Source of the DNA: Ignavibacteriales bacterium | GTDB taxonomy: Bacteria > Bacteroidota > Ignavibacteria > Ignavibacteriales > SURF-24 | Length of the DNA: 64,000 nucleotides | Reading direction: 5' to 3' | NCBI GenBank assembly: GCA_003599415.1 | Contig: QZKB01000055.1 | Coordinates: forward strand, 1 to 64,000 | In this document: positions 23,708 to 55,600 of the stretch, piece after piece | Numbering within the stretch: the stretch's first letter is position 1 | How the letters are laid out: each line of letters begins with the position of its first letter | The notes under the pieces: model-generated | What the model was told of the DNA's origin: nothing | Seen by the model: only the letters and a program-made list of their open reading frames with translations | Databases searched by the model: none | Program-made: the position numbers and the translations under genes

Positions 23708-23772
23708 TACAAACTTGATGTTTTTGTTTACCTAAATATAGAAAAATTTAGTTATGGAAAGAGTAGAAAAGA

Positions 23773-36409: not shown

Positions 36410-36646
36410 ATGATTATCAAAATACTTGGAATGGGCTGCGCCAAATGCAACAAGCTCGAAGAAAAAGTAAAAGAAATTGCAATGGACAATAACATTGAAG
36501 CAACTTTCCAGAAGGTAACGGACATTCAGGAAATCATGAAATATAAAATTATGATGACTCCCGGCCTGGTTATTAATGAGCGCGTTATGAGCAGCGGTGT
36601 TATTCCTAAGGATGAACTTATACTTCAGTGGCTGAAGGAAAATTAA
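36410..36646 (+). CDS. Thioredoxin-fold redox-active disulfide protein (MTH895-like)
   Basis: 'MIIKILGMGCAKCNKLEEKVKEIA...PGLVINERVMSSG'; listed ORF start 36356 probably upstream of true start. Confidence 0.88.
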   Translation: MIIKILGMGCAKCNKLEEKVKEIAMDNNIEATFQKVTDIQEIMKYKIMMTPGLVINERVMSSGVIPKDELILQWLKEN

Positions 36647-36680
36647 ATGATGGAAAATGGCAAATGGTTAATGGATGATA
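36647..36680 (+). repeat. Heptad element R2 (short)
   Basis: Immediately after stop codon: 'atg atggaaa atggcaa atggtta atggatg'. Confidence 0.7.
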
Positions 36681-36724
36681 TAAATAAGTATTCATCTGTA
36701 ATTAATATAAACTTTAGAGTGTTA

Positions 36725-37132
36725 ATGTTGATCAAGAATTATTTCAGCCTCTTTATCATCTTTTTATTTCTCTTTGTACAGGTAAATGGACAAGACAAAA
36801 TTAAAAACAAGACCGAAAATAAAATCAGTAATAAGCCCAAAGTTACTTTTGTAGAGCTTGGCTCAGTAAATTGCATTCCCTGCAAAAAGATGCAACCGAT
36901 AATGAAATCAATTGAAGAAAGGTACGGTAAACAGGTTAAAGTTGTTTTTCATGATGTCTGGAAGGAAGACCAGAAACATTACGGTGAGAAGTACAGAATA
37001 AAATTAATTCCAACCCAGGTCTTTCTTGATGAGAACGGCAAGGAGTTTTTCCGCCACGAAGGATTTTACCCTGAAGCAGAAATTGATAAGCTTCTTGAAA
37101 AGAGAGGAGTGAAAGCAAAGGAAAATAAATGA
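36725..37132 (+). CDS. Exported thioredoxin family protein
   Basis: Signal anchor 'MLIKNYFSLFIIFLFLFVQVNG', 'VELGSVNCIPCKKMQPIM'; listed ORF start 36647 lies in the repeat. Confidence 0.85.
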   Translation: MLIKNYFSLFIIFLFLFVQVNGQDKIKNKTENKISNKPKVTFVELGSVNCIPCKKMQPIMKSIEERYGKQVKVVFHDVWKEDQKHYGEKYRIKLIPTQVFLDENGKEFFRHEGFYPEAEIDKLLEKRGVKAKENK

Positions 37133-37191
37133 AAGGATAATAATGTGTCCTACTTGTCAGCTGGTAAGGTGAGCAACTGCGGAAATAATAA

Positions 37192-37482
37192 ATGAAACAA
37201 TATTACGTTTACATATTAGCAAGCAAGAAAAACGGAACTCTATACATTGGTATCACAAATGATTTGATGAGAAGAGTATATGAACACAGAGAAGGATTAA
37301 TTGATGGCTTCACCAAGAAATATAATGTTAAAAATCTCGTTTATTTCGAAATTATAAGCAATGTAACTGAAGCAATAAAAAGAGAAAAAGCAATGAAGAA
37401 ATGGCTCAGGAAGTGGAAGATAGAATTAATCGAGAAGTCAAATCCTGAATGGAAAGATTTATATCTCGAAATAATTAACTAG
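37192..37482 (+). CDS. Single-domain GIY-YIG nuclease
   Basis: 'YYVYILASKKNGTLYIGITNDLMRRVYEHREG'. Confidence 0.92.
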   Translation: MKQYYVYILASKKNGTLYIGITNDLMRRVYEHREGLIDGFTKKYNVKNLVYFEIISNVTEAIKREKAMKKWLRKWKIELIEKSNPEWKDLYLEIIN

Positions 37483-37503
37483 AGACTTATGAAAATTTAA
37501 AAT

Positions 37504-37571
37504 GTCATTCCCGTGTAAACGGGAATCTAAATTCTGTTTTGTTAATGGATACCCGCTTAAGCGGGTATGAC
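37504..37571. repeat. Inverted pair of REP-like hairpins (REPIN-like)
   Basis: GTCATTCCCGTGTAAACGGGAATCT (37504-37528) and inverted GTCATACCCGCTTAAGCGGGTATCC (37547-37571). Confidence 0.8.
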
Positions 37572-37654
37572 ACAAAAGCTAAAAATCAGAGTGCGGAAAT
37601 ATAAAATGAATAGGCCATTGTCCCTATTCCCTTTCACTTTTAACTTGGTGGCAA

Positions 37655-38353
37655 ATGATTGACGATATTTTCAACTTACTTTACAATGCTATGTATGAAT
37701 CCGCCTGGATTGCTGTGCTGGCATCATTCGGCTGGGGAATTTTATCTATACTACTTTCTCCATGTCATTTATCCAGCATCCCTCTTGTAGTTGGATTTAT
37801 TACTTCGCAGGGAAAAATTTCTGTGGCAGGAACGTTTATTATCTCTTTGGTATTCTCAACAGGAATTTTAATTACAATTGCAGTCATAGGAATTATCACT
37901 GCTTTACTCGGAAGATTAATGGGCGACATCGGTAGCGTTGGAAATTATCTTGTAGCAGGAATTTTCCTTGTAGTCGGTCTTTATCTATTAGGCCTTATAA
38001 AATTTGATTGGAATTTTGGATTGAAGCAAACCCAATCCAAAGGATTAGCTGCTGCTTTATTACTTGGTTTGCTTTTCGGACTTGCATTAGGTCCTTGCAC
38101 ATTCGCATTTATGGCACCTGTTCTTGGTGTTGTTTTTGAAACAGCACAAACAAATTATTTGCTCGCAGTAATTTTCCTTCTTGCATTTGCAGTAGGACAT
38201 TGTTCTGTAATTGTTGGCGCCGGAACATTAACCGGCAAAGTTCAGAAATACTTAAACTGGTCGGAAGAATCAAAAGTAATTTTATGGATTAAAAGAATCT
38301 GCGGTATACTCGTAATACTTGGCGGAGTGTACTTAGTCTATACATCAAACTAA
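37655..38353 (+). CDS. CcdA/DsbD-like cytochrome c biogenesis/thiol electron transfer membrane protein
   Basis: 'WGILSILLSPCHLSSIPLVVGFI', 'GLALGPCTFAFMAPVLGV'. Confidence 0.9.
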   Translation: MIDDIFNLLYNAMYESAWIAVLASFGWGILSILLSPCHLSSIPLVVGFITSQGKISVAGTFIISLVFSTGILITIAVIGIITALLGRLMGDIGSVGNYLVAGIFLVVGLYLLGLIKFDWNFGLKQTQSKGLAAALLLGLLFGLALGPCTFAFMAPVLGVVFETAQTNYLLAVIFLLAFAVGHCSVIVGAGTLTGKVQKYLNWSEESKVILWIKRICGILVILGGVYLVYTSN

Positions 38354-38371
38354 AATAAACTGAGGTGGCAA

Positions 38372-38638
38372 ATGCTTTATTTAGTAACAAGTAACCCGTT
38401 ATATTCAAAACCCGGCGATATTGAAGAAGCAAAAGTTGAGTTTAAAGAATGGCTAAGCGGGTTACATTCAAAAGGAAAAGTTATTAACGCTTTTCAGAAA
38501 ATCGGCAAAGGCTCTGTTATTGTTTTCAACCTTGAATCAAACGAAGAGTTGAACGAGGTTATGTCCAAATGGTTAAGTATCGTTCCGGTACCAATCACTT
38601 ACGAGATTACGCCATTGGTTAATTCCGGATTAGAATGA
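38372..38638 (+). CDS. Small dimeric alpha-beta barrel-like protein (muconolactone isomerase-like), hypothetical
   Basis: 88 aa 'MLYLVTSNPLYSKPGDIEEAKVEFKEWL...PVPITYEITPLV'; family tentative. Confidence 0.5.
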   Translation: MLYLVTSNPLYSKPGDIEEAKVEFKEWLSGLHSKGKVINAFQKIGKGSVIVFNLESNEELNEVMSKWLSIVPVPITYEITPLVNSGLE

Positions 38639-38839
38639 AAAGCCGTTAAATAAAAAACATTTACAGTTAAGTTCTGAATTGCTGATAAACAGAAGTAAGT
38701 ATAAATGAAATTTTTAATTCAAGATTGATACAGTACTTAATTAGAATACGCACTTATCCAACTCTCCTCCAAAAGAGAGTGCAATTAAGATTGTCGTAAT
38801 GATTGAAAGCAACAAATAATTATTTTTCAAAATAAAAAA

Positions 38840-38888
38840 ATTACTACTAAACTCCCTCTTCCTTTGGAAGAGGGTTGGGGAGTAGGCT
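38840..38888. repeat. Inverted-repeat element CCCTCTTCC-TTT-GGAAGAGGG
   Basis: 'aactccctcttcctttggaagagggttggggagt' perfect inner dyad. Confidence 0.7.
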
Positions 38889-38897
38889 GGAGATATA

Positions 38898-39704
38898 ATG
38901 AACCCGGACAAAGAAATAAAAGAAGTAGTAAAAGACAAATATGCTGAGATAGCCATTCGCAGTGATATTAAATCCGGTTGCGGATGCGGCTGTGGCTGCG
39001 GACCAGAGTCGGACACAGAATTCACAATTATGAGCGATGAGTATTCATCACTTGACGGTTATGTGCCGGATGCAGATTTAAAATTAGGCTGCGGCATTCC
39101 AACTGAACATGCAGGAATAAAACAAGGCGACACCGTGCTCGATCTTGGATCGGGTGCAGGCAACGATGTTTTTGTTGCAAGAGTCCTTGTTGGTGAAACC
39201 GGCAAAGTTATAGGAATTGATTTTACTCCTGAAATGATAGCCAAAGCAGAACGGAACAAACAAAAGCTTGGATATAAGAATGTTGAATTCCGTCCTGGCG
39301 AAATTGAAAACATACCTGTTGAAGATAATTCAATTGATGTTGTAATAAGCAACTGCGTTTTAAATCTTGTACCCGACAAAGATAAGGCGTTCGGTGAAAT
39401 TTTCAGGGTGTTAAAATCAGGCGCACATTTCTGTGTTTCCGATATTGTACTTAAAGGTGAATTACCGGAGAGTATTCAGAAGTCCGCTGCAATGTATGCG
39501 GGGTGCGTTGCCGGCGCCTTACAGATGGAAGATTATCTTGGTGTAATAAAAAAATCTGGATTCAAAAATATTGAAGTGAAGACAGAGAAGAAAATTACTG
39601 TTCCTGATGAGGTTCTATTACAATTTCTTTCAAGGGAAGAATTAAGCACATATAGAAATTCCGGTGTAGGCATTTATAGTATTACTGTGAATGCGGAAAA
39701 GTAG
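38898..39704 (+). CDS. arsM: Arsenite S-adenosylmethyltransferase
   Basis: 'GCGCGCGCGPES', 'ADLKLGCGIPTEHAGIKQGDTVLDLGSGAGNDVFVARVLVG', 'ISNCVLNLVPDKDKAFGEIFRVLKSGAHFCVSDIV', 'AGCVAGALQMEDYLG'. Confidence 0.93.
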   Translation: MNPDKEIKEVVKDKYAEIAIRSDIKSGCGCGCGCGPESDTEFTIMSDEYSSLDGYVPDADLKLGCGIPTEHAGIKQGDTVLDLGSGAGNDVFVARVLVGETGKVIGIDFTPEMIAKAERNKQKLGYKNVEFRPGEIENIPVEDNSIDVVISNCVLNLVPDKDKAFGEIFRVLKSGAHFCVSDIVLKGELPESIQKSAAMYAGCVAGALQMEDYLGVIKKSGFKNIEVKTEKKITVPDEVLLQFLSREELSTYRNSGVGIYSITVNAEK

Positions 39705-39710
39705 ATTCTT

Positions 39711-39917
39711 ATGGAAGATGGTAAATGGTTAATGGAAGATGTATGAACGCTTTTCGCTATGAAGATGAATACTGATTGATGGTAAATGGAGGATGGAAGA
39801 TGGTTAATGGAAGATGTACAAAATCCATTTTCCATTTCACATTTTCCATTTTCTCAGCCAAAGGCTGATCCCGCCTTGCGGGACATTTTACATCTCCCAT
39901 TTTCCATTATCCATATT
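39711..39917. repeat. Heptad element R3 with CAGCCAAAGGCTG-ATCCCGCCTTGCGGGAC core
   Basis: In-register ATGGAAG/ATGGTAA heptads at 39711-39745 and 39779-39820, complementary CCATTTT/ACATTTT heptads 39825-39852 and 39883-39917. Confidence 0.9.
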
Positions 39918-39949
39918 TTCTTCTTATTTTTGCCTCGAACAATTGGGTT

Positions 39950-41482
39950 ATGACAATGAACTCTCTTTATCTTGGCGATTGTCTTTACGTTTTAAGGGAT
40001 AACATTCCGGACAAATCAGTTGATCTTGTTTATATCGATCCCCCGTTTAACAGCAAACGCGATTACAATATTTTCTTTGACGATAAAGAAATACAAACGC
40101 AGCGCATTGCTTTTGAAGATACGTGGAGCTTAAAGAATATTCAGGATTCGCTAACAGAGTTACACACTTTGCAAACCGATAACCTTTATTTTCTTTTGCT
40201 TACTTACCAGAAAGTTGCGCCCCACGCATTCCCCTATTTAACAATGATGGCACTGCGTATTTTAGAACTGCACAGGGTTCTTAAAGATACCGGCAGTTTT
40301 TATCTGCATTGCGACCCAACCATGAGCCATTATTTGAAAACGGTTTGTGATATAATTTTTGGAGAAGAAAATTTCAGGAATGATATCGTATGGGAAAGAA
40401 CATTTGGTTCTGGTAGTAGTAAATCAATCGCGAAGAAATTTCCTGTAAATACTGATAACCTTTTATTTTATTCAAAATCAAATGTTTATTCTTTTCATCA
40501 CGAATTTAAAGCATATGAAGAAGCTACAATAAAAAGATATGATAAAATCGATGAAAATGGAAAAAGATATAAATGGGAAAATTTAAAAACATATTCGAAG
40601 GAAACACTAACAGAGTTAATTCAGAAGGGTGAGGCAAAATTTAATCCCAAATCGAAATACCCTGTTTATAAAAGTTATCTTGATGAAAGCAAGGGTACAA
40701 TTATTTCTAACTTGTGGTATGATCTTAAATTTATTGGAACAAAATCACCTGAGCGTCTTGGTTATCCAACACAAAAGCCAAAAGCATTGCTTGAAAGAAT
40801 AATTAAAGCAAGCAGCAATGAGGGCGATATTGTTTTAGATGGTTTCTGCGGCTGCGGCACCGCTTTGGATGCAGCGGAATCTCTTAACCGCAAATGGATT
40901 GGAATTGATATTTCTCCAATTGCAATTTCATTAATTAAAAGAAGACTGAAAGACACTTATGGTAAACAGTTAAGTAAGTTCGAGATTCGCGGTGTACCTA
41001 CGGATGAAGCCTCTGCAAAAAAACTGTGGGAAGAAAATCCGTTTGCTTTCCAGGACTGGTGGCTTACTGAATTTGAAGTATTCTCTACAACCTACGGTAC
41101 AAAAGGTGCAGATAAAGGAGTTGACGGAATTGGTCAGTACATTGCAGATCACCAGGGAAATACTTTGCGTGCTGCTTTCCAGGTTAAGGGCGGTGGAAAG
41201 GTTAAATCTTCAGAGATTGATTCACTGCTTGGAATTTTAGAAAAGCATAAATGCCAGTTGGGAGTTTTTCTGACTATTGCAGAACCGACAAAACCAATGA
41301 TGGAAACAGCAACCGCATCAGGATTTTTTGAAGCGGGTGGATTTCAATATCCCAGGATTCAGATTTTAACTTTGGAAGAATTCTTTGCCGGTAAACGTCC
41401 AAAGCTTCCAACGGAAAATGTTACGTTTAAATCTGCTCAACTGAAAGGAAAGAAAGTTCAGCAAATATCTCTGGAGTTGTGA
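39950..41482 (+). CDS. Beta-class DNA adenine/cytosine-N methyltransferase with C-terminal Mrr-like PD-(D/E)xK domain
   Basis: 'DLVYIDPPFNSKRDYNIFF', 'GDIVLDGFCGCGTALDAAESLNRKWIGIDISP'; C-term 'GADKGVDGIGQYIADHQGNTLRAAFQVKGG'. Confidence 0.88.
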   Translation: MTMNSLYLGDCLYVLRDNIPDKSVDLVYIDPPFNSKRDYNIFFDDKEIQTQRIAFEDTWSLKNIQDSLTELHTLQTDNLYFLLLTYQKVAPHAFPYLTMMALRILELHRVLKDTGSFYLHCDPTMSHYLKTVCDIIFGEENFRNDIVWERTFGSGSSKSIAKKFPVNTDNLLFYSKSNVYSFHHEFKAYEEATIKRYDKIDENGKRYKWENLKTYSKETLTELIQKGEAKFNPKSKYPVYKSYLDESKGTIISNLWYDLKFIGTKSPERLGYPTQKPKALLERIIKASSNEGDIVLDGFCGCGTALDAAESLNRKWIGIDISPIAISLIKRRLKDTYGKQLSKFEIRGVPTDEASAKKLWEENPFAFQDWWLTEFEVFSTTYGTKGADKGVDGIGQYIADHQGNTLRAAFQVKGGGKVKSSEIDSLLGILEKHKCQLGVFLTIAEPTKPMMETATASGFFEAGGFQYPRIQILTLEEFFAGKRPKLPTENVTFKSAQLKGKKVQQISLEL

Positions 41483-41491
41483 GAAAAGCTG

Positions 41492-41605
41492 ATGGAAACT
41501 GACTAATGGTAAATGGAAGATGGTAGATGGTAAATGTTTAAGAACTGTTTCTCCATTTCCCATTTTACATATTCCATATACCATTTTACATCTTACATTT
41601 TTCAT
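41492..41605. repeat. Heptad element R4
   Basis: atggtaa atggaag atggtag atggtaa atgttta / ccatttc ccatttt acatatt ccatata ccatttt acatctt acatttt. Confidence 0.9.
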
Positions 41606-41632
41606 ATTAATTCTTAAATAAAGGAGGGGAAA

Positions 41633-41998
41633 ATGAATCCTAAAACAGAAGAACTGTTAGACAGAACATTTCAATTTGGAATTAAGTGCTTAAGATTACT
41701 ACAAGAACTTCCGCAGAACCAAATTTTTGCTGTGCTAACTTATCAATTGGCTAAAGCTTCCACATCAGTCGGAGCCAATTATGAAGAAGCACAAGGTGCA
41801 GAATCCAAAAAGGATTTCGTCCATAAAATCGGGATTGTTCTTAAAGAAATTCGGGAAAGCAATTATTGGTTGCGCGTCTTAAATGAGATTTTAATTAAGC
41901 CCTCTTTGAATGAAGAAGCGGAATCTCTTATAAAAGAAAGCAGTGAATTAAAGAGCATTTTCAGCTCAATTAAAATTAAAGCAGGAAAAGGAGAATGA
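41633..41998 (+). CDS. Four-helix bundle (S23/bAvd-like) protein
   Basis: 'YQLAKASTSVGANYEEAQGAESKKDFVHKIGIVLKEIRESNYWLRVL'. Confidence 0.92.
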   Translation: MNPKTEELLDRTFQFGIKCLRLLQELPQNQIFAVLTYQLAKASTSVGANYEEAQGAESKKDFVHKIGIVLKEIRESNYWLRVLNEILIKPSLNEEAESLIKESSELKSIFSSIKIKAGKGE

Positions 41999-42004
41999 TG
42001 TTAA

Positions 42005-42096
42005 ATGGAAGATGGAGGCTGTTTGATGGTAAATGGAAGATGGAAAATGGAAGATGTATAAAATCTATATTCCATCTCACATTTTACATTTTACAT
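42005..42096. repeat. Heptad element R5
   Basis: atggaag atggagg ... atggtaa atggaag atggaaa atggaag atgtata / ccatctc acatttt acatttt acat. Confidence 0.9.
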
Positions 42097-42113
42097 AAAA
42101 AGGAATATACACT

Positions 42114-42488
42114 ATGCTCAAATACATTTTAGTTTCCCTTGGTGCGGCAATCGGAGGTGCGCTTAGATACTGGCTCTCAAATTATGTTTATAAATTTCTG
42201 CCGGAAAATTTTCCCTACGGAACATTAACAGTAAATGTTGCGGGAAGTTTTCTTGTAGGCTTTTTTATTTTTTACCTAAGCGACAGAGAAATCATCAGCT
42301 CAAATCTGAAATTATTTTTAACCGTTGGTTTCTGCGGAGGGTTTACAACATTCTCAACTTTCTCGCTTGAGACAATGAATCTCTTCCGCGATTCGGAATT
42401 CCTGCTTGCAGGCTTTAACATACTGCTCAATCTTTTTCTATGCCTGCTTGGTGTTTATTTGGCTTATATAATTTTTAAAGCTAATTAG
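42114..42488 (+). CDS. crcB: Fluoride channel CrcB/Fluc
   Basis: 'GAAIGGALRYWLSNYVYKFLPENFPYGTLTVNVAGSFLVGFF', 'GFCGGFTTFSTFSLE'. Confidence 0.96.
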   Translation: MLKYILVSLGAAIGGALRYWLSNYVYKFLPENFPYGTLTVNVAGSFLVGFFIFYLSDREIISSNLKLFLTVGFCGGFTTFSTFSLETMNLFRDSEFLLAGFNILLNLFLCLLGVYLAYIIFKAN

Positions 42489-42497
42489 GAGTTTACC

Positions 42498-42848
42498 ATG
42501 CATATAAAAGGTGAAGCGAAACTTCTTAGAATATTTATTGGTGAATCCGATAAAAGCCATTCGACAAACGTATATGAAAAAATAGTACTTGAAGCACGTA
42601 AGGCAGGATTAGCCGGGGCAACAGTGTTCAAAGGAATTATGGGCTTTGGCGGAACAAGCAGGATACACACCTCAAAAATATTAAGACTGTCTGAAGACCT
42701 TCCGCTTATCATTGAGATAGTTGATGAGGAAGCAAAGATTGAAAGTTTTATCCCGGTTGTAGATAAGATATTTGAAGAATCAAATTGCGGCGGACTTATT
42801 ACTTTGGAAAAAGCGGAAATCATTAAGTATACGTCCGTAAAGAAATAG
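42498..42848 (+). CDS. DUF190 family protein
   Basis: 'AKLLRIFIGESDKSHSTNVYEKIVLEARKAGLAGATVFKGIMGFG'. Confidence 0.92.
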   Translation: MHIKGEAKLLRIFIGESDKSHSTNVYEKIVLEARKAGLAGATVFKGIMGFGGTSRIHTSKILRLSEDLPLIIEIVDEEAKIESFIPVVDKIFEESNCGGLITLEKAEIIKYTSVKK

Positions 42849-42855
42849 CTTTAAA

Positions 42856-43103
42856 TGGAAGTGGATTAATGGTAAATGGCAAATGTGAGATGGTAGATGT
42901 CCGCCAAAGGCGGAGCAGCCTAAGCCAGATTTATCAACCTTTGGTTGAGGCTTATAAATCCGGCTGAGAAGATGGTATCGGGTTAATGGTAAAGGGATGA
43001 TGGAAGATGGTAAATGTTTAAGAACTGTTTTTCCATCTCACATTTTACATCTCACATTTCACATTTTCCATCTACCATTTTACATTTCCCATTTTCCATC
43101 ATG
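42856..43103. repeat. Composite heptad element R6 with nested hairpins
   Basis: ATGG heptads, TCCGCCAAAGGCGGA (42901-42915), CAACC-TTT-GGTTG hairpin, second ATGG array, CCATCTC/ACATTTT array to 43103. Confidence 0.88.
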
Positions 43104-43158
43104 AACTATTTCTTTCAACATCCTGTTATCTAATTAAACTTAAAAAGACACGAATACT

Positions 43159-43878
43159 ATGTACCAGACAAAAAAGACTTATATAAAACCGGAAATGAAA
43201 ATGGCCGGGCTTATTTTTGAAAACCCTGCCCTGCAGCTTATGATGGAACACTTCGAGCTAAATTATCTTGTGCGCGAAAAGAATGTACAGCAGTACTGTG
43301 AAGAGAATAATATAGGTGTGGAATTATTCCTTTCAATAGCCAATCTCTATAACGGATTCTTTGCAATAGAAGAAAAAAATTTTTCAACTAATGATCTGTT
43401 AAGAATTTTAAAATACCTTAAAAACTCTCACAACTACTACGAGAATGAAAAATATCCCGAAATAAGATCTTTGATTGACCAGCTTTATCTTAAAAATGAT
43501 ACGCCGGAAATAAAACTTATCGGGAAGTTCTTTGATGAATATTTCGAGGAAGTGAAAGAACATCTTTCCTATGAGAACATAACGGTATTTCCTTACTTTA
43601 ATAAATTATTAAGTGTTGTTGCCGGCACCAAAAATTTTAAAACTTCATTTTCGGTTAACGAGTACAGTGAACATCATACGGACATAGAATCTAAACTAAA
43701 TGATCTGAAAGAACTTCTGCTTAAGCATATCCCGGTTAAGAACGATAGGGTGTTAAGGAGAAAAATAGTTTTAAGTTTGTTTGAACTTGAATACGATTTA
43801 AATGTGCATTCCTTAATTGAGGAAATGATTCTAATTCCCGCAATAAGAAAACTTGAGAACAAAGAACCGGTTGAATAA
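43159..43878 (+). CDS. Hemerythrin-domain protein
   Basis: 'NSHNYYENEKYPEIRSLIDQL', 'EVKEHLSYENITVFPYFNKLL', 'EYSEHHTDIE', 'HSLIEEMILIPAI' give HHE-type ligand spacing. Confidence 0.75.
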   Translation: MYQTKKTYIKPEMKMAGLIFENPALQLMMEHFELNYLVREKNVQQYCEENNIGVELFLSIANLYNGFFAIEEKNFSTNDLLRILKYLKNSHNYYENEKYPEIRSLIDQLYLKNDTPEIKLIGKFFDEYFEEVKEHLSYENITVFPYFNKLLSVVAGTKNFKTSFSVNEYSEHHTDIESKLNDLKELLLKHIPVKNDRVLRRKIVLSLFELEYDLNVHSLIEEMILIPAIRKLENKEPVE

Positions 43879-44473
43879 AAGAATACTAAATATAGCAGTA
43901 CTGGAACCATCCCAGATAATTTTTGAAGGACTAACTAACATACTTTCAAAGTCTGGTTGTTATTTTAAACTCTTCCGGCTGGATTCACTTGCCGAAATTG
44001 AAAATCTTTACAAGGCGGAAAAACTTAATCTTGTTATAATTAATCCCACTCAAATCCAGAACAGAACCAGGGAATTCACTTCAATTAAAAAAAACCTTAC
44101 GGAAATTGCATGGGTAGGATTTGTTTACACGTTTATAGATAATCATCTTCTTTCATTGTTTGATAAAATAATTCACATTACGGATTCCCAGGAAAGCATA
44201 GTGGATTTTATTTGCCGGTTAGTTAAGGAAGAACATCATTCATCTCAGTTAAATGAACAGGAACCGCTTACCGACCGCGAGACTGAAGTTTTGAAATCGA
44301 TTGTGGCGGGTTTATCCAACAAGGAAATTGCAGATAAATTATTTATAAGTATACATACCGTTATCAGCCACAGGAAAAACATTTCACAAAAAACCGGAAT
44401 TAAAAGCCAGGCCGGTCTTACCATTTACGCCATCTCAAACAAAATAATTCAAATTGAAGATTATCAGAGTTAA
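43871..44473 (+). CDS. LuxR-type transcriptional regulator with degenerate receiver domain
   Basis: C-term 'LTDRETEVLKSIVAGLSNKEIADKLFISIHTVISHRKNISQKTGIKS'; N-term receiver-like 'NLVIINPTQI'. Proposed TTG start 43871 (ORF track 43853). Confidence 0.85.
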   Translation: MNKRILNIAVLEPSQIIFEGLTNILSKSGCYFKLFRLDSLAEIENLYKAEKLNLVIINPTQIQNRTREFTSIKKNLTEIAWVGFVYTFIDNHLLSLFDKIIHITDSQESIVDFICRLVKEEHHSSQLNEQEPLTDRETEVLKSIVAGLSNKEIADKLFISIHTVISHRKNISQKTGIKSQAGLTIYAISNKIIQIEDYQS

Positions 44474-44490
44474 GGTTTTGTTGCACTAAC

Positions 44491-44530
44491 TATAAAATGG
44501 GATCATACACTTAAAATATCCCGCTTTATA
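44491..44530. other. Hairpin downstream of luxR-type gene (terminator or leader structure)
   Basis: TATAAAATGGGAT ... ATCCCGCTTTATA, 12 of 13 paired (counting G-U). Confidence 0.6.
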
Positions 44531-44598
44531 GCGATTGAACAAGGCGGATTAGCTGCATAATTTTCTTATAGATTTAGTAAGAAAATTAATGTGCTGTT

Positions 44599-45780
44599 AT
44601 GAATCGCGAATTTTTACTCTTAACAATAATCATCTTTTTTGCAGGCTTACTTTACTGCCAGCAACCTGGTTTTGATACTACAGTTAGAAATCCTGATTCG
44701 GTTTATTTTTCAACCGGCTCAAAATGGTTAACACAGGAAGCCTCGTACTTGGGAGATTTTGTAACGAACTTACATGGCGGTATAAAAACCGGTTCGCTGT
44801 ATCTCGGTATGGCTAATATTAAATTAGGGTTTGAAACTAAGAATATCGGGTTATGGAATGGCGGAGAATTTTTTGTTAACGGCGCAGCTACGCATGGCGG
44901 AACTCCTTCCGAAAATCTTTTCGGTGACTTTCAGGTTGCATCTAATATTGAGGCAGGCAACCATATCTATCTCCACGAATTGTGGTATAAACATGCATCC
45001 GGCAGTTTTCAATTTAAAGTTGGTTTACAGGATCTTAATACCGAATTTCTGACGAATGATCATACCGGCTCATTTATAAACAGTTCGTTTGGAATTCCTT
45101 CACTTATATCCGGTAATATCCCTGTTCCTATTTTCCCTCTTACCGCTTTGGGAGTTTTGGGAATTTATGAATTAAATGATAAAGTCACTTTACAAGCTGC
45201 AATTTTTGACGGGCTTCCGGAATCATTTGAAAGCAACCAGTATAATTTAAATTGGAGTTTGAAAAGTGACGACGGGGTACTAGTGTTTACGGAGCTGCAA
45301 TACTTATCCGATATTGCATCTCTGCCCGGTAAAATTAAAGCGGGTTGCTATTATCATTCACATCTTAAAGAGACTTCTCCTGAAACAGGAATTGCAGAGA
45401 CAGTGTTTGAGAAAAATTATGGTTTTTATGCTCTTGCAGATCAAACGATATTAGAGACGGGAAAAAACAAATCTCTTGGATTATTTACTCAGCTTGCATT
45501 TTGCCCGGGTAACATTAATTTTCATAACTACTATGTAGGCGGCGGTTTGAACTATTGCGGCATTTACTCAAGCGATGAGATGGGAATTGCATTTGCCTAT
45601 GCACATTTCAACAATAAATTACTTGATGACGAAGCGACAGTTGAACTGTTTTACAAAAAAACCATTTCTGAAAACTTGTTTATTCAACCTGACATTCAAT
45701 ACATAATCAATCCTGCAGGTGCGGATATAAACCATCCGGATGCACTTGCAGCTTTAATAAGATTTGGAATTAATTTTTAA
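44599..45780 (+). CDS. OprB-like carbohydrate-selective porin family
   Basis: 'WLTQEASYLGDFVTNLHGGIKTGSLYLGMANIKLGFETKNIGLWNGGEFFVNGAATHGGTPSENLFGDFQVASNIEAGNHIYLHELWY'. Confidence 0.82.
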   Translation: MNREFLLLTIIIFFAGLLYCQQPGFDTTVRNPDSVYFSTGSKWLTQEASYLGDFVTNLHGGIKTGSLYLGMANIKLGFETKNIGLWNGGEFFVNGAATHGGTPSENLFGDFQVASNIEAGNHIYLHELWYKHASGSFQFKVGLQDLNTEFLTNDHTGSFINSSFGIPSLISGNIPVPIFPLTALGVLGIYELNDKVTLQAAIFDGLPESFESNQYNLNWSLKSDDGVLVFTELQYLSDIASLPGKIKAGCYYHSHLKETSPETGIAETVFEKNYGFYALADQTILETGKNKSLGLFTQLAFCPGNINFHNYYVGGGLNYCGIYSSDEMGIAFAYAHFNNKLLDDEATVELFYKKTISENLFIQPDIQYIINPAGADINHPDALAALIRFGINF

Positions 45781-45789
45781 AAAGTCATT

Positions 45790-48288: not shown

Positions 48289-48296
48289 GTGAAAAT

Positions 48297-48497
48297 ATGA
48301 ATCAGGATTTTATTGTATTTGCAATAATTGCGTTAACTGTTTTTTATGTGGCATTCGGATTTGTAAAAAATCTGAAGACAAAAAAAGTTAAAAGTTCTTG
48401 TGGTGGTTGCACCGGCTGCGATTTATCCAGAACACAGAATAATGTTGCGGGATGCAGCCCGGTGAAAAAATTTGAAAGACGAGTAGTCAATTCTTAA
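48297..48497 (+). CDS. FeoB-associated Cys-rich small membrane protein
   Basis: 'MNQDFIVFAIIALTVFYVAFGFVKNLKTKKVKSSCGGCTGCDLS'; listed ORF start 48159 is antecedent. Confidence 0.85.
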   Translation: MNQDFIVFAIIALTVFYVAFGFVKNLKTKKVKSSCGGCTGCDLSRTQNNVAGCSPVKKFERRVVNS

Positions 48498-48544
48498 CTC
48501 CCGCCTTTGATTTTAATGGCGAGAATCTTTTGCGAAAAAAAAAT

Positions 48545-48907
48545 CTACTGCTTTTCCATAAATAATTTAATAGCATAAAAAAGCAGCAGCACAGCAAAGC
48601 CTTTCTTCAGCCAGTACTCCGGCAATTCAATGGCTACTTTTGATGAGAAATAACTGCCGACAACAAAGGTAATGGTCATTATAAGAACAGCTTGAATATT
48701 AACCAGTCCGGCTTTATAATAATTTATCGCCGCTAAAATTCCAATAGGTAAAAGTAAAAAACCAATAGATGTTCCCTGCGCCTGCTTTTGGTTCATTCCC
48801 ATAAAAGCAACAAGTGCGGGAATTATAATTATACCTCCGCCCACGCCAAGAAATCCGCTAAGCAAACCCGCAGCAAGACCGATTAACAACAGTATTACTA
48901 TTTCCAC
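48545..48907 (-). CDS. TauE/SafE family sulfite exporter-like permease
   Basis: 'LLSGFLGVGGGIIIIPALVAFMGMNQKQAQGTSIGFLLLPIG'. Confidence 0.92.
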   Translation of the reverse strand: MEIVILLLIGLAAGLLSGFLGVGGGIIIIPALVAFMGMNQKQAQGTSIGFLLLPIGILAAINYYKAGLVNIQAVLIMTITFVVGSYFSSKVAIELPEYWLKKGFAVLLLFYAIKLFMEKQ

Positions 48908-48968
48908 TAATTCTCCGTTTTTTAGTTAAAAAGATAGCAAAAGAAAATACAAGCAGGAAGAAAGTTTT

Positions 48969-49145
48969 ATGGTAAATGGAAAATGGAAAATGGTAAATGT
49001 TTAATAGTAAACAATATATGTAAGAAGGTTCTTCACATCTCACATTTACCATCTCACATCTCACATTTACCATCTCACATCTCACATTTACCATCTCACA
49101 TCTTACATTTACCATCTCACATCTCACATTTACCATCTTACATTA
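48969..49145. repeat. Heptad element R7 with 21-bp higher-order tandem repeat
   Basis: atggtaa atggaaa atggaaa atggtaa atgttta, then 15 in-register heptads 49035-49139 as five (acatcYc acattta ccatctY) 21-mers. Confidence 0.95.
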
Positions 49146-49481
49146 CTTAACCTTGTAACCGTTATTAACAAGATTTTCTTTAACCTTCACAACCGTAAAC
49201 TCTTCCAGGTCCATTCCACATGTTGGGCAGGAGTTTGGCTTATCATCAATTACATTCCAATCCATCGGGCACTCAAACAACATTCCATTCATATTAACAT
49301 CAATCGCGCCGACATCAATTATTTCATCTTCTCTTACGATATTTTCTTTCTTCTCCGTTTTTGTTTGTTCCTTTGTTTGTTTGTCTTGTTTCTTTTCACC
49401 GCAGGCGGTTAAAAATCCGGCTATCATAAAAACCAAAAACAAAATGAAATACTTGTTTGAATTCATGTTTCCTCCATTCAA
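49143..49481 (-). CDS. Lipoprotein with heavy-metal-binding (HMBD-like) Cys motif
   Basis: 'IAGFLTACGEKK' lipobox; 'MLFECPMDWNVIDDKPNSCPTCGMDLEEF'. Confidence 0.85.
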   Translation of the reverse strand: MNGGNMNSNKYFILFLVFMIAGFLTACGEKKQDKQTKEQTKTEKKENIVREDEIIDVGAIDVNMNGMLFECPMDWNVIDDKPNSCPTCGMDLEEFTVVKVKENLVNNGYKVK

Positions 49482-49497
49482 CTAAAAATAAATCTGG

Positions 49498-49608
49498 TTA
49501 TAATTTATAGTTTGTAAGTATAGCAATCAACATTATAATTGCCATAATTAGTACTATCCATGCGCTAAACCGGTTACATGGTGATCTATTATCTTTATCG
49601 CATTGCAT
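49498..49608 (-). CDS. 36-aa single-TM microprotein with N-terminal Cys pair (not in ORF track)
   Basis: Read by hand: MQCDKDNRSPCNRFSAWIVLIMAIIMLIAILTNYKL*; preceded on the minus strand by 'ctggaggtaat' (GGAGG) then ATG. Confidence 0.6.
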   Translation of the reverse strand: MQCDKDNRSPCNRFSAWIVLIMAIIMLIAILTNYKL

Positions 49609-49697
49609 ATTACCTCCAGTATTTAATAATTATTTTAAAACTTTATTCCGCTCGTTAAGGTTATTTTCTTCTGATTATATAGTTTTTGATTCAATAA

Positions 49698-51227
49698 TTA
49701 ATTAGATGCTTTATTACCTAAAAAGATTTTACCGTCTTCGCTTAAATTTTTCATGTACTTTTCAGGATTCTCAATAAATTTCCTGTCGCACCCGGGGCAG
49801 CAAAAACCAATTAGTTTTCCCTTATATTCAACCGGCTTTACTTTTAATGATACTTTATTGCCAAGCACCGGGCACACTGCATTAAAAATACCTGCTTTAC
49901 CGGATTGTTCTTCATTTTTACCAGACATATTATTTTTATTATGATTATGAAGTTTTTCCTGGTCAGTATCTTCCATCTTTTTTATTTCACTATGCTGATG
50001 TGCCGGCATTGTACTACTTCTAAGCTGACTTTCGGAATCAATAAGGAACCCACCGGTAGCAACAATTTCTTCGCCTTCCTTAAGTCCGGAAACAATCTGG
50101 TATTTATCTTCAAAACGATTTCCTAATACCACATTGCGTGCTTCGAACATTCCGTTACTATCCTTTATCCAAACAACAGAGCGTTTGCCGGCAATAATTA
50201 CGGCATCAACAGGAACGAGCAAACCTTCTCCTTCAGCACTGCGGAATACTGTTTCCCCGTACATCTGCGGTTTTAATTTTCCACCATTGCTTGAGAATTC
50301 ACTTCTTACTTTTACGGTTCTTGTCTGTGGATTAATTACCGGGTAAATAAAAGTCACCTTGCCTTCAAATTCCTGGCCGGGATATGCTCTGAGTTTCAGC
50401 TTTACAGTATTTCCAACTTTAATGTTTGCCAGATCTTTTTCGTACACTTCAGCAATATTCCATAGAGTTGAAAGTTCTGCAATGTCATAAATTGAAGTTC
50501 CTTCATTGACGTACATTCCTTCCTGTACTTCCTTTTCAATTACTGTCCCGCTGAAAGGTGAATAGTAAGTAAGAGTAATACTCGCTTCTTCCCTTTTCTC
50601 CAATTCATTAATCTGGTTTGAGGTTAATCCGAAAATTTCAAGTTTCTTTCTGGCAGCATTTAACAGGTTAGACGAACTAGAAGAATTGTTCAAAGCAATC
50701 AGATAATCATTTTGAGCCTGTACTAAATCAGGACTGTAAATTTCAAATAACGGTTCACCCTTTTTAATATAGTCGCCGGTTTTATCAACGAATAGCTTTT
50801 CTATTCTACCGTTAAAACGTGCAGAAATAGTTTTGCGGTTGTTCTCGGCAAAATCCATATAGCTGTAAGCAACAACATCATTCTGGTATTTCTCCTTCTT
50901 TACAACTACCGTAGATACATTTGCAAGCACCTGTTTTCTGCCGCTTAAGTTTAAAAGGCCGCTTGTGTCACTATCAATTTCTGTTTCTGTTTTTTTAACA
51001 AGATCCATGTGGCAGATTGGACAAACACCTGGCCTGTCTGAAATTACCTGCGGGTGCATTGGGCAGGTCCAGACTTCCTGCATATTTGCAGCTTGATGAT
51101 TCTGTTCATCATTCTTTTCATTACCCGAACATCCTGCTATTACAAATACAGTGGCAAGCAGAATTAAAGTTACAACACCGAGAGTTTTTAATTTAGTTAT
51201 CTGATTTTTTCTTATTCTGTTTTTCAT
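49698..51227 (-). CDS. cusB: CusB-type RND periplasmic adaptor with N-terminal HMBD and C-terminal YHS-like domain
   Basis: 'VWTCPMHPQVISDRPGVCPICHMDLVKK'; adaptor core; C-term 'NAVCPVLGNKVSLKVKPVEYKGKLIGFCCPGCDRKFIENPEKY'. Confidence 0.92.
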   Translation of the reverse strand: MKNRIRKNQITKLKTLGVVTLILLATVFVIAGCSGNEKNDEQNHQAANMQEVWTCPMHPQVISDRPGVCPICHMDLVKKTETEIDSDTSGLLNLSGRKQVLANVSTVVVKKEKYQNDVVAYSYMDFAENNRKTISARFNGRIEKLFVDKTGDYIKKGEPLFEIYSPDLVQAQNDYLIALNNSSSSSNLLNAARKKLEIFGLTSNQINELEKREEASITLTYYSPFSGTVIEKEVQEGMYVNEGTSIYDIAELSTLWNIAEVYEKDLANIKVGNTVKLKLRAYPGQEFEGKVTFIYPVINPQTRTVKVRSEFSSNGGKLKPQMYGETVFRSAEGEGLLVPVDAVIIAGKRSVVWIKDSNGMFEARNVVLGNRFEDKYQIVSGLKEGEEIVATGGFLIDSESQLRSSTMPAHQHSEIKKMEDTDQEKLHNHNKNNMSGKNEEQSGKAGIFNAVCPVLGNKVSLKVKPVEYKGKLIGFCCPGCDRKFIENPEKYMKNLSEDGKIFLGNKASN

Positions 51228-51252
51228 TTTGTTACCTATAAATTTTTACGAC

Positions 51253-52695
51253 TTACCTGCCGGTAATCAAGTTAGTACCAATCATCATTTCTATTTCGGC
51301 AATTGCCATACGGCTGTCTGCCCGCGCCATATAGTAATTCATCTGCTGCATTAAAAGCATACGGTATGAATCAATTATAGTTGTTACACTCGTCCTGTTA
51401 TTCTGAAATGCCGAAGTCTGTGCTTCAATGGCTTTTTCATTCAGAGGAATAACTTTTTCATTGTAAAGTTTTATCAGATCAAGAGCCGTTTTGTATTTAA
51501 GAATTGATTCATTCAGCTTTGAAATCATATCTCTCCGCATATCTTCTTTTTCATATTCAAAACTGCTTATGCCGGCATATAATTCTTCTTCCTTTGCTTT
51601 AAATTTATTTGCAGACCAAGGAGCGAAAGGGAGATTAATTGAAGCCATAATCCCGTACATCAGTTCTGTTTCACCTTTTCCATCAATCATCATCGGATCT
51701 GTTTTGGATGTAAGCAGCATTCCGCGCGGCATCCGCATCAGCATACCCTGAACCATCAGATCGGGAATCAGCTCGCGGTTGTTCGCGTCAATCATTGCTT
51801 TGTTCATATCAATCATACTATTCATTTTTTTTAACGATGGATTTTCTTCAGTAAGAATTTCTTCAAGCTTTGATTGCGGAATAATCAATGAATCGCTTGC
51901 AATTTCCTTTTCAGCATATATGTCTTTGGAATTCAGCTCTCTGCCGAGAAGTTTATTCAGTTTGTATATCTCTGTACTTTTCTGATTTTGAAGTGTAAGT
52001 ATTTGCGTTTCACCGGAGGCTATTTCACTTTGCAGCGTTAGCAAATCCGCCTGGTTAATTCTGTTTGTAATGTAAACGGATTCGACTGATCTGATTAAAT
52101 TATTCAACAGCTCAATTTGTTTTTGCTGGATTTCAATTTTCCTATCCAACAGCCAGAGATTGTAATAGGACATTTTAAGCTGGGCAATCAAATTCGTTTT
52201 ATATGATTCATAATTATTGCCTTCAACTTTCATGTTTTGTCTTTCAACTTCAGACATTGCATTTAATTTCCCTCCTATGGGAAACATTTGCGAAAGACTG
52301 AAATTGTTCGAAACGGATTTGTTAAGAACATTCAAAGTATTTATCGGTACCTGCGAAAACTCAACAGAAAAGCTCGGTGGAGGCATTGTATTAACTGACT
52401 CACTTCTTCTTTCCGCAGCAGTAATTTTATACTGTAAAGATTTTAACTGCGGATTATTTCTAACTGCTTCATTAACTAAAGAATCAATTGATTGAGCAGT
52501 TGAAATGTTAGTGATAAAAACAAGAGCAACAAATAAGTAACAATAGATCAAACTCTTCCCTCGACTACGCTCGGGATGAGTTATAATAAAGTTATGCAAT
52601 CCTATTCGAAGGACATTTCCCATCAACCATCTTCTCAGCCAAAGGCTGATCCCGCTTCGCGGGACATCTTCCATCATACATCTTCCATCTTCCAT
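51253..52695 (-). CDS. cusC: TolC family outer membrane efflux protein (CusC-like); true start likely near 52555
   Basis: 'NPQLKSLQYKITAAERRSESVNTMPPPSFSVEFSQVPIN'; the first ~50 aa of the ORF are repeat-derived. Confidence 0.88.
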   Translation of the reverse strand: MEDGRCMMEDVPRSGISLWLRRWLMGNVLRIGLHNFIITHPERSRGKSLIYCYLFVALVFITNISTAQSIDSLVNEAVRNNPQLKSLQYKITAAERRSESVNTMPPPSFSVEFSQVPINTLNVLNKSVSNNFSLSQMFPIGGKLNAMSEVERQNMKVEGNNYESYKTNLIAQLKMSYYNLWLLDRKIEIQQKQIELLNNLIRSVESVYITNRINQADLLTLQSEIASGETQILTLQNQKSTEIYKLNKLLGRELNSKDIYAEKEIASDSLIIPQSKLEEILTEENPSLKKMNSMIDMNKAMIDANNRELIPDLMVQGMLMRMPRGMLLTSKTDPMMIDGKGETELMYGIMASINLPFAPWSANKFKAKEEELYAGISSFEYEKEDMRRDMISKLNESILKYKTALDLIKLYNEKVIPLNEKAIEAQTSAFQNNRTSVTTIIDSYRMLLMQQMNYYMARADSRMAIAEIEMMIGTNLITGR

Positions 52696-52698
52696 TTT
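52613..52698. repeat. Heptad element R8 with CAGCCAAAGGCTG-ATCCCGCTTCGCGGGAC core
   Basis: acatttc ccatcaa ccatctt [core] acatctt ccatcat acatctt ccatctt ccatttt; core nearly identical to R3. Confidence 0.9.
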
Positions 52699-55600
52699 AT
52701 TCTCCCTCCTTCATCCATACGGCCATTTTTGAAATTTCAAGTTTTCCTTTTTTAAGAGCGTGCTCTTTCATAATTGCAAAAAGAATCGGCGTTACTACAA
52801 GAACGTGTATTGCAGAAGTAAGCAATCCTCCAATTAGTGGAGCGGTTAAAGGTTTCATTACATCGGAACCGGTTCCTGTTGCCCACATTACCGGAATCAA
52901 TCCAACCATTGATGTGCCTACTGTCATCAACTTAGGACGCAGCCGTAATACCGAACCTTCAACTGTTGCTTCATAAATATCTTTGTTAGTTATTGGCCCG
53001 CGTTCACCTTTTTTATGTGACCTTAATCTTTTATCAAGTGCTTCGTGAAGATAAACAACCATTACAACACCTGTTTCAACAGCAACACCGTAGAGAGCAA
53101 TGAATCCTACCCACACAGCTACAGAAAAATTATAGCCGAGCGCATAGATTGTGTACATACCACCGATAAGTGCAAAAGGAACAGACAGCATTACGACGGC
53201 AGCTTCAAGGTAATCTTTAAGTGTAAAGAACAATAGAAGAAAGATTAGCAGAAACACAACAGGCATTATAATTTGAATCGTTTGTTGGGCGCGTACTTTA
53301 CTTTCATACTGCCCGCTCCAGGCATAGGTATAACCGTATGGCAATTTCAATTCCTTCTCAATTGCTCCTTTTGCATCAACCAAAACACTGCCCATATCCC
53401 GTCCTCTTGTGTTCATAAAAACAATGGATCGAAGCATACCGTTTTCACTGCTTATCATTGGCGGACCAGTAACAAGATTTATTTCTGCCAGTTCGTTTAA
53501 TGGCAAATAAGTAACCGCATTTTCGTTTGTACTTAGTAATGAGTAGTCATTCGGTTGAGAAGCCTGGGATTGCGATGCATAATTTAATGGTGTATTACTT
53601 CCGCTCATTGAAGACATTCCACCTGAACTTCCTCCGCTCATACCTCCACTCATTGAGCCGGTGTTTATTGCCGAAGAAGATTGACCTGCCATAGGATTTG
53701 ATAATGCAACCGGTACAATCAAACTTTTCAGTTCATCAATATTGTCACGGTAATCTTTCTGGTAACGCATTCGTATCGGAAAACGCATTCTGCCATTAAT
53801 TACAACTCCAAGATTTTGTCCGCCGATAGCAGTTTCAATTATATCCTGCAGACCACTTATATTCACTCCGTAACGTGCTGCTATTTCTCTTTTAATATTT
53901 ATATCGAGATAATAGCCGTTCTGAACGCGTTCTGCAACAACATCAGCAGCGCCATCAACTTTCTTAAGAATATTTTCTGCTTTAATAGCATACTCTTCAA
54001 GTGTATCCAGGTTGGGACCAAAAATCTTAAATCCAATATCAGTTCTTACACCTGTGGCAAGCATGTTTATTCTGTTGATAATAGGTTGAGTCCAGCCGTT
54101 CTGTACTCCGGGGATTTGTAGTTTTGCATCGAGTTCAGAAATTATATCCTGCTTTGTAATACCCGGCCGCCATTCATCTTTTGGTTTTAAAAGAATTATT
54201 GTTTCAATCATACTTAAAGGAGCATTATCAGTTGCTGTTTCTGCCCGTCCTGTTTTACCAAGAACATGATGCACTTCAGGAATTGATTTGATAATCTTAT
54301 CCTGCTCCTGTAAAATTCTGTTCACTTCTGTTATTGAAGCGCCGGGCAAAGTAACCGGCATATAAAGAATTGAACCCTCATCAAGCGGAGGCATAAATTC
54401 ACTTCCGGTATTCATTATCATCGGAACAGTTATTAGAAGAGCAATTACATTTAATGCAATTGTAGTTTTCCTATGCTTAAGCACCCAATGTATTACGGGT
54501 TCATAAATCCTGATGAAAAATCTTGTGGTTGGATTTTTTTCTTCCGGTTTGAATTTACCTCTCATTAAGAACGTCATCAAAACCGGTATAAGTGAAATTA
54601 CGACAAACGCCGCTCCCAGCATTGTAAAAGATTTTGTGAATGCGAGCGGCTTGAAGAGTTTCCCTTCCTGTCCTGTTAAAAGAAATACAGGCAGGAATGA
54701 AACAAGTATGATGAGATCAGAAAAGAAAATTGCACGCCCAACCTGCTTTGCGGAATCGATAGAGATTTTTTTGTACTCCTCACTCGTAAGTTTTCCTTTT
54801 TCTTCAATTGCTTTGGCAATGTTACGATATGCGTTTTCTACAAGTACAACTGAAGAATCAACAATAACTCCTATGGCTAAAATAATTCCGCCGAGAGACA
54901 TTATGTTTGAAGTGATATTAAAAGCGTACATAAGAATAAAGGAAATTAAAACCGCAACCGGAATCTCGATTAGAATTCGTACTATACTTCTCCAATGCAA
55001 AAGGAAGATTGCAACTATAATCGATACAATAATTGCCGCTTCAATTAATGCGCGGTCCAGTGTTCCTATTGCTTCTTTAATTAAAATACTTCTGTCATAT
55101 GAAGGAACAATCTCAATTCCTTTCGGAAGGCCCGGTTCAATTTCTTTTATCTTTTCTTTTATTCTATCAATAACTTTCTGGGCGTTCTCACCTGTTCTCA
55201 TTACTACAATACCGCCGACAACTTCACCCTCGCCATTTTTATCAAGTGCCCCGCGGCGTATATCTCCGCCCAAATCAACTGAAGCAATATTTTTAATAAA
55301 CATTGGAATGCCGTTCGTACCAGTCCTTATAACTGTATTTTCAATATCTTCTTTTGATTGAATATATCCCTGACCACGAACAAAATACTCAGCATCACTT
55401 ATCTCAAGCAATTTACCGCCAACTTCATTATTGCTCCGTTGTATTGCGTTAACTACATCTGATATTGTTAAATTGTAAGCGCGTAAATCATTTGGACTAA
55501 CATTTACCTGGTATTGTCTTACAAACCCACCAATGCTTGCAACCTCAGCAACTCCCTCAACTGATGAAAGCTTATACCGGATATACCAATCCTGCACAGC

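Follow-up and report, generated by a model that had tools for sequence, protein, structure and literature searches.

Tandem repeats of seven nucleotides recur in a 64,000-nucleotide stretch from an Ignavibacteriales bacterium (GenBank assembly GCA_003599415.1, contig QZKB01000055.1, positions 1 to 64,000, forward strand), called the window below. R2-R8, the repeats in question, are arrays of a degenerate heptamer with the consensus ATGKNAR on one strand, the ATG strand. All begin at or close to the stop codon with which the preceding gene ends, and in 7 of 7 cases that gene has its coding sequence on the ATG strand. Our results strongly support this placement and strand rule as real and general, since it recurs in related genomes, in a sample from many phyla and in arrays of unrelated heptamers. 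We propose that the arrays are probably non-mobile, period-7 repeats expanded by slippage, with their 5' edge pinned at the end of a coding sequence.

Placement and orientation of the arrays

The source genome of the window (G000; 5.03 Mb in 173 contigs, 88.5% complete, 7.3% contamination) was sampled as stretches around pattern matches plus five control stretches. Together with five array-rich relatives of the same order (G007, G024, G061, G037 and G074) it forms the six-genome set; one genome per species was used throughout. Genes were called with a purpose-written codon-usage caller, whose starts are uncertain and whose stops are certain. Arrays in relatives were found by pattern, so that short, weak or decayed arrays are under-sampled. 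In the null model each array was placed at random, on a random strand, inside its own gap, in 2000 runs.

The six genomes contain 88 ATGKNAR arrays with two flanking genes. In 40 of them a same-strand stop codon lies within 16 nt of the 5' end, against 9.0±2.5 (maximum 18) under the null model, and a single one has its 3' end within 16 nt of an antisense stop. The enrichment persists without the arrays of the window (34 of 74; null 7.4±2.3). Median distances are 2 nt to the upstream stop and 117 nt from the 3' end to the next start, and the 5' end is closer than the 3' end to the neighbouring gene in 72 of the 88 arrays (p=1e-9). Read on the strand richer in G, an array therefore has its 5' end at the edge of a gene and its 3' end directed into the gap. 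Relative to randomised positions, both the enrichment near stops and the strand bias are thus present, and a preliminary description of the window was right to consider them unlike a random simple repeat. Antisense arrays follow a weaker tendency, 14 of 19 lying nearer to a start codon (median 58 versus 114 nt). In convergent gaps, 7 of 8 arrays are adjacent to a sense stop (null 0.9); therefore the start of the next gene cannot be the sole anchor. The same candidate is ruled out by reading frame as well: where a stop-adjacent array precedes a co-directional gene, it is in frame with that gene in 10 of 36 cases and out of frame in 26, and seven more such arrays face a convergent gene.

The rule extends to distant lineages. 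A pattern scan of GTDB provided 80 loci over many phyla, a sample among the matches listed and not a census, in which 18 placements of 103 were sense and 5 antisense, against an expectation of about 5% in either case. Within the phylum, other orders contributed 4 sense and 0 antisense cases. Finally, 101 arrays of other heptamers (AAAGTGA, TAATTGA, TAAGAAT, GTTGTCT, TAGGGAT and others) were collected with position playing no part in the choice: 34 are sense and 7 antisense within 25 nt of a stop (null 6.7% and 6.0%), or 19 and 7 when only stops before the array are counted. As unrelated heptamers obey the same placement, the rule is independent of the ATGG unit.

Arrays of the ATGKNAR type are patchily distributed, being found in 16 of 96 relatives and in 28 of 396 genomes of the phylum. 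The source genome holds about 25 array places, and a loose four-unit pattern matches it 154 times, compared with 6 matches for the reversed control. The window is unusually rich in arrays, and those outside it are mostly one-armed. On contigs C112, C143, C170 and C190 of G074, a heptamer array lies within a few hundred bases of the first base; heptamer arrays may break assemblies and hence be under-counted in draft genomes.

Arrays of the window

Period-7 profile scores of R2-R8 range from 33 to 132 bits, and the best score in first-order Markov shuffles (5x64 kb) is 21 bits, so their original recognition as 7-nt arrays stands. The elements are as follows.

R2: 36647-36679, + strand, one-armed ATGGNAR array, 0 nt from the preceding stop (stop 36646, ATG at 36647)
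R3 left (ATG) arm: 39711-39818, + strand, 6 nt past the stop of the arsM-like gene (39704)
R3 right (CCAT) arm: 39824-39914, - strand, lying antisense to both genes and split by a nested double hairpin
R3 double hairpin in the right arm: 39854-39883, - strand, TCCCGC-N3-GCGGGA-TCAGCC-N3-GGCTGA
R4 left arm: 41491-41536, + strand, 8 nt past the DNA methylase stop (41482)
R4 right arm: 41549-41605, - strand, with the loop TTTAAGAACTGTTTCT, common only to R4 and R6
R5 left arm: 41997-42061, + strand, its first ATG shared in part with the 23S_rRNA_IVP stop codon TGA (as TGATG), with the first full ATGG at 42005
R5 right arm: 42067-42099, - strand, with a loop related in sequence to that of R3
R6 left arm, first block: 42853-42899, + strand, 4-7 nt past the DUF190 stop (42848)
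R6 nested compound hairpin insert: 42900-42967, + strand, separating the two array blocks
R6 left arm, second block: 42968-43016, + strand
R6 right arm: 43029-43100, - strand
R7 left arm: 49032-49145, - strand, 16 units, onset at the stop codon of the HMBD protein gene (-2 nt)
R7 right arm: 48966-49006, + strand
R8 array: 52665-52698, - strand, onset at the cusA stop (-2/+1 nt), in frame within the cusC open reading frame (51253-52695)
R8 double hairpin: 52635-52664, - strand, inserted at the ATG|GAAG phase, with the cusC frame open through the hairpin too
R8 units beyond the double hairpin: 52614-52634, - strand, where the array resumes
R1: 23754-23889, + strand, array with a nested double hairpin in a divergent gap, an exception to the stop-codon rule

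Manual counting puts the onsets of R2-R8 at -2 to +8 nt relative to the preceding stop codon. The preliminary description had given -1 to about 9 nt, so that nearness to the stop is confirmed and the range slightly corrected; its assignment of the ATGG arm to the coding strand of the preceding gene is correct for all seven. The architecture of an ATGG arm plus a CCAT arm applies to R3-R7 and not to R2 and R8, which are one-armed, R8 containing a separate double hairpin inside its array. Nor is the 7-nt register strict, as had been stated: nested hairpin inserts break it in R1, R3, R6 and R8. R1 cannot be subsumed under the stop-codon rule, as it does not follow a stop. The identities of the genes at the arrays were confirmed by Pfam (thioredoxin, class-I methyltransferase of arsM-like type, N6/N4 DNA methylase, 23S_rRNA_IVP, CrcB, DUF190, hemerythrin, HMBD and a cusC-like OEP). 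R2 and R8 do not simply separate genes, because the downstream gene reads them in frame. An Rfam scan of the window gave no match at R1-R8, RNase P being the sole match. Nearly all ATGKNAR units contain at most GG, short of the G-tracts of three that characterize three-quartet G-quadruplexes.

Relationship of the two arms

Two-armed elements always point inwards, the ATG arm being followed by a loop and then by the CCAT arm; this is true of all five in the window and of 9 of 9 in relatives. RNA duplex energy summed over these 14 elements amounts to -329 kcal/mol for cognate arms and -380±22 kcal/mol for permuted arms; only 0.3% of permutations are as weak as the observed pairing. No arm covariation was found in the 14 elements, in which cognate arms pair worse than swapped ones. 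A maintained hairpin would favour its own partner arm, and therefore a selected hairpin is ruled out. The idea of hairpin "punctuation" after genes, with which the elements had been introduced, is thus abandoned, a lack of covariation having been named in advance as part of what would refute it; it also conflicts with the prevalence of one-armed arrays outside the window. Complementarity of the arms stems from their shared unit, not from co-evolution. The weaker pairing of cognate arms could reflect selection against long perfect palindromes.

Empty, filled and turned-over sites

Orthologous intergenic regions with and without an array, whose comparison had been suggested earlier, include empty, filled and turned-over sites (R2 versus G001; L105/L332; L098/L327; L104/L337/L341). 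Behind the same conserved C-terminus of cusA, the cusA|cusC junctions of 30 relatives are array-bearing, built of other heptamers, or simple. At a pyrB-like junction, a two-armed array is present in G007 and G051 with differing units, and G032 has no array. One gene pair is separated by a 10-nt gap in G051 and by about 115 nt with an array pair in G007 (L105/L332). At another site, the onset of the G007 array is a Met codon that precedes the old stop by two codons, and the stop in use is now provided by the array itself. Array sites persist between species while their units turn over completely. The empty and filled sequences are too diverged to delimit any target-site duplication.

Arrays as N-terminal leaders

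R2 is read in frame as an N-terminal extension (MMENGKWLMDD..) of a secreted thioredoxin. Its ortholog in G001 is an empty site (TAAAATGAATAAAATATT, TAA-A-ATGAATAAAATATT), where thioredoxin has its native start and a normal signal peptide. A cusC gene is recognisable at the cusA-cusC junction of 29 genomes, and every one of these has the cusC frame open right from the cusA stop. In all 29, array or none, the first ATG after (or overlapping) the cusA stop is in frame with cusC, and the arrays encode peptides ahead of the signal peptide, for example MEDGRCMMEDV.. and MVDGKWKMVDGG.. R2 and R8 are accordingly not purely intergenic but lie inside the downstream gene, and at R2 and R8/cusC a non-triplet repeat occupies the 5' coding region, as in phase-variable contingency simple sequence repeats (SSRs). 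The proposal that the many ATGs interfere with re-initiating ribosomes is contradicted at both places, the first ATG being the in-frame start of the next gene. The cusC frame is kept with or without an array, so selection acts on the start codon and not on the array. Serving as a leader is what follows at some sites and does not give rise to the placement rule.

The opposite strand of the repeat apparently becomes a leader as well, the N-terminus of CusB seeming to be encoded by an antisense (CCAT) array at L109 (6131-6183, G024) and L384 (G022), e.g. MFKKLKIHFPSAIYHLPLVII.. In several relatives (L265-L277) the signal-peptide region of CusC itself consists of a different repeat (ACTCTGTG/CTTTGCG-like) that adjoins GAATGWA or GAATTGA heptamers; the whole N-terminus therefore evolves by repeat turnover.

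Five relatives (L097, L109, L384, L385 and L386) have a 23S_rRNA_IVP (PF05635) gene placed between cusC and cusB, preceded by a sense array and followed by an antisense one, and the IVP gene of the window (41633-41998) has R4 and R5 on either side. The family numbers 6-20 copies per genome in this order, and only 3 arrays were found near 30 IVP loci. An IVP (S23) cassette is thus not general despite the flanked genes in five cus operons, and neither is the notion of arrays as recombination joints of gene cassettes generally supported.

Loops, nested hairpins and other features

The loop of R4 and R6 has two copies in 5 Mb, 1.5 kb apart. By inspection, R3 and R5 have another loop in common; otherwise loops and units differ from site to site. 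Sharing of loops is local copying and not the mark of a dispersed family. Since the R4/R6 loop occurs only twice, at short distance, the arrays are no dispersed transposon, and a mobile element of miniature inverted repeat transposable element (MITE) type, with dispersed copies of one body sequence, is not supported.

The nested double hairpin (consensus as given for R3) has about 25 matches genome-wide at up to 3 mismatches, among them 52635-52664, 39854-39883 and about 23820-23849 in the window and copies on C3, C13, C42, C50, C53, C124, C139 and other contigs of G000. At least half of the copies are inside or beside arrays; near arrays the hairpin always has the direction of the ATG strand and the same phase (ATG | hairpin | GAAGATG). 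The loops of some copies contain additional nested hairpins, and the relatives are nearly devoid of the double hairpin. Neither arrays nor the double hairpin were found beside RAYT (REP-associated tyrosine transposase) genes at 14 Y1_Tnp loci, four of them in G000, and an origin of the double hairpin from repetitive extragenic palindromes (REPs) and RAYTs is rejected on this ground.

The gene 3' of R7 (48545-48907, - strand) matches only the second half of TauE/SafE (profile 127-237 of 237) and, judging from this partial match, may be a truncated gene with its 5' end at the array. A small open reading frame at 37192-37482 presumably encodes a GIY-YIG protein. On its 3' side, at 37503-37575, lies a long inverted repeat (GTCATTCCCGTGTAAACGGGAAT...TACCCGCTTAAGCGGGTATGAC), a REP-like element.

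Origin of the arrays

We propose that arrays would nucleate from chance matches to the unit at coding-region edges, the places where ATG and purines are most abundant on the sense strand. Slippage or unequal exchange in steps of 7 nt would then lengthen or shorten an array. As it could extend only in the direction leading off the coding sequence, its 5' edge would stay pinned at the stop codon. A second array would often arise from the other side of the gap in opposite orientation, giving an inward pair that resembles a hairpin. An array may also turn into the N-terminal leader of the next gene, as R2 and R8; the commonest units (ATGGAAR) permit this, being free of stops in all three frames and offering an ATG every 7 nt. 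In genes without arrays, similarity to the unit at the stop codon peaks on the sense strand (2.85 bits) and dips on the antisense strand (-0.74 bits), with about 1.4 and 0.4 bits further downstream, and the last 15 coding bases of these genes are 61% purine. Such nucleation, followed by expansion in 7-nt steps off the coding sequence, would explain the strand, the start point, the turnover and the unit-independence, and a general regulatory function of the arrays is unneeded.

Several points weigh against this origin, which we nevertheless consider probable. The seed bias is only about 1.4 bits, perhaps too weak for such tight anchoring, which the proposed nucleation and expansion alone do not account for. 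Growth at one end is unsupported, as unit quality and neighbour identity are equal at both ends (p=0.38 and 0.17), and polar growth is therefore rejected. The inward orientation of 14 of 14 arm pairs is described by the model and not strictly derived from it. The gene caller was home-made, and the pattern by which arrays were found in relatives under-samples weak ones.

A REP-like regulatory role would have an array within about 15 nt of a stop form an mRNA structure or ribosome-binding sequence, by which terminating ribosomes would be stalled or recycled, or the 3' end protected. The spacing fits the distance of up to 15 nt quoted in PMC12306157 for ribosome stalling at Escherichia coli REPs, the sense RNA is fixed as AUGGAAG, and the site shared by G007 and G051 is kept with turned-over units. 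Against this, cognate arms pair no better than swapped arms, most arrays are one-armed, the gene classes look arbitrary and R1-R8 have no Rfam match, so that we regard such a role as rather unlikely. Selection could also act on translational coupling: an ATG in every frame after the stop would let terminating ribosomes restart into the next gene, and changes in unit number could make the coupling phase-variable. With 26 of 36 arrays out of frame and seven more facing a convergent gene, coupling cannot explain the general rule. It is unlikely in spite of the 10 in-frame arrays, the thioredoxin leader at R2 opposite the empty site in G001, and the in-frame ATG past cusA in 29 of 29 genomes, many with arrays, because retention of the cusC frame is selection on the start codon.

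The two remaining explanations concern the formation of arrays. Were they two-armed mobile elements with heptamer terminal inverted repeats, inserting next to stop codons and leaving one-armed remnants, the invariably inward arms, the growth of a 10-nt gap to about 115 nt (L105 versus L332), the patchy distribution (16 of 96 relatives) and the loops common to R4/R6 and R3/R5 would be understandable. This explanation, already raised as an unknown mobile element in the preliminary description, is very doubtful: the R4/R6 loop is confined to two neighbouring copies, loops and units are different at every site, no linked transposase was seen, the RAYT genes examined had neither arrays nor the double hairpin beside them, and unrelated heptamers obey the same rule. 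Alternatively, purine-rich sense repeats might expand through RNA:DNA hybrids where nascent RNA is untranslated just past the stop, orientation and start point following transcription and not selection. The sense strand, the start at the stop codon, the convergent gaps and the unit-independence with the G-rich strand as sense would all be explained; the antisense right arms, which in co-directional genes are close to start codons (14 of 19 nearer the start), would not. We consider it the least probable of the explanations discussed.

Comparison with known repeats

Short tandemly repeated repetitive (STRR) sequences of cyanobacteria, associated with Mazel (1990), are reportedly heptanucleotide tandem repeats. 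STRRs and long SSRs are defined by repetition only, and anchoring at a stop codon is not known to be part of the definition. In the summary of Mrazek 2007 given in PMC4679880, heptanucleotide tandem repeats are the commonest class of longer-unit SSRs and slippage is proposed for them.

REPs of E. coli are inverted repeats often located within 15 nt of a stop codon, where they stall ribosomes, according to work cited in PMC12306157. ATGKNAR arrays share this stop proximity, but lack the conserved palindrome, the arm covariation and the link to RAYTs that mark REPs and bacterial interspersed mosaic elements (BIMEs). By analogy with REPs, ribosome stalling at arrays is a possible effect.

TAACTGA heptamers were described in Beggiatoaceae, Cyanobacteria and some Bacteroidetes as patchy, intergenic and degenerate (MacGregor 2015, PMC4679880). 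In Beggiatoaceae they lie mostly just upstream of starts; some arrays are mixed with other heptamers and some are reversed beside a stop codon. ATGKNAR arrays resemble them as patchy intergenic 7-nt arrays across unrelated lineages, but differ in the unit and do not share the start-proximal forward orientation, their median distances being 117 nt from the next start and 2 nt from the upstream stop.

The closest counterparts are the degenerate, mostly intergenic heptamers GGGAATC in two Xanthomonas species and GGGGA(C/T)T in Nostoc (Rehm et al. 2015, PMC4692102). There the 5' side of the G-rich strand is close to an open reading frame (28 versus 160 nt), and repeats at or overlapping a stop are on the coding strand, those near a start, upstream of genes, on the non-coding strand. 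Each Xanthomonas genome has 70-75 convergent pairs forming inverted repeats, and length and sequence vary extensively at conserved sites. Quadruplexes were emphasised and no function was found. ATGKNAR arrays are alike in their tandem degenerate 7-nt unit, intergenic bias, 5' end at the stop on the coding strand, proximity to starts on the non-coding strand (14 of 19) and convergent inverted pairs. The Rehm-type units contain GGG tracts, whereas ATGKNAR has none and does not require a three-quartet G-quadruplex; quadruplexes of the Xanthomonas and Nostoc kind are therefore not the cause here.

No description of the ATGGAAR family was found in the open-licence papers searched. Added over the work of Rehm et al. 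are the unit without GGG, the in-frame use as a leader, the test of arm pairing, the orthologous empty sites and the unit-independence across phyla. Among the simple repeats of bacteria that have longer units, heptamers are the commonest. The same placement grammar holds without GGG and for many heptamers of unrelated sequence, which speaks against both quadruplexes and hairpins as its cause; this must be sought in the replication, transcription or constraint of gene ends. A route from non-coding repeat to N-terminal leader is shown as well, with the cusA-cusC junction as a natural series of empty, filled and turned-over states. We tentatively suggest, as a possibility we would not yet favour, that heptamer arrays, whatever their unit, are a feature general to many bacterial phyla, anchored at stop codons with the G-rich strand as sense, made by a process recognising the 3' edge of translated genes and repeatedly supplying new N-terminal leaders of exported proteins. 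The G-quadruplex heptamers of Xanthomonas and Nostoc would then be a special case of these arrays, in which the quadruplex is incidental.

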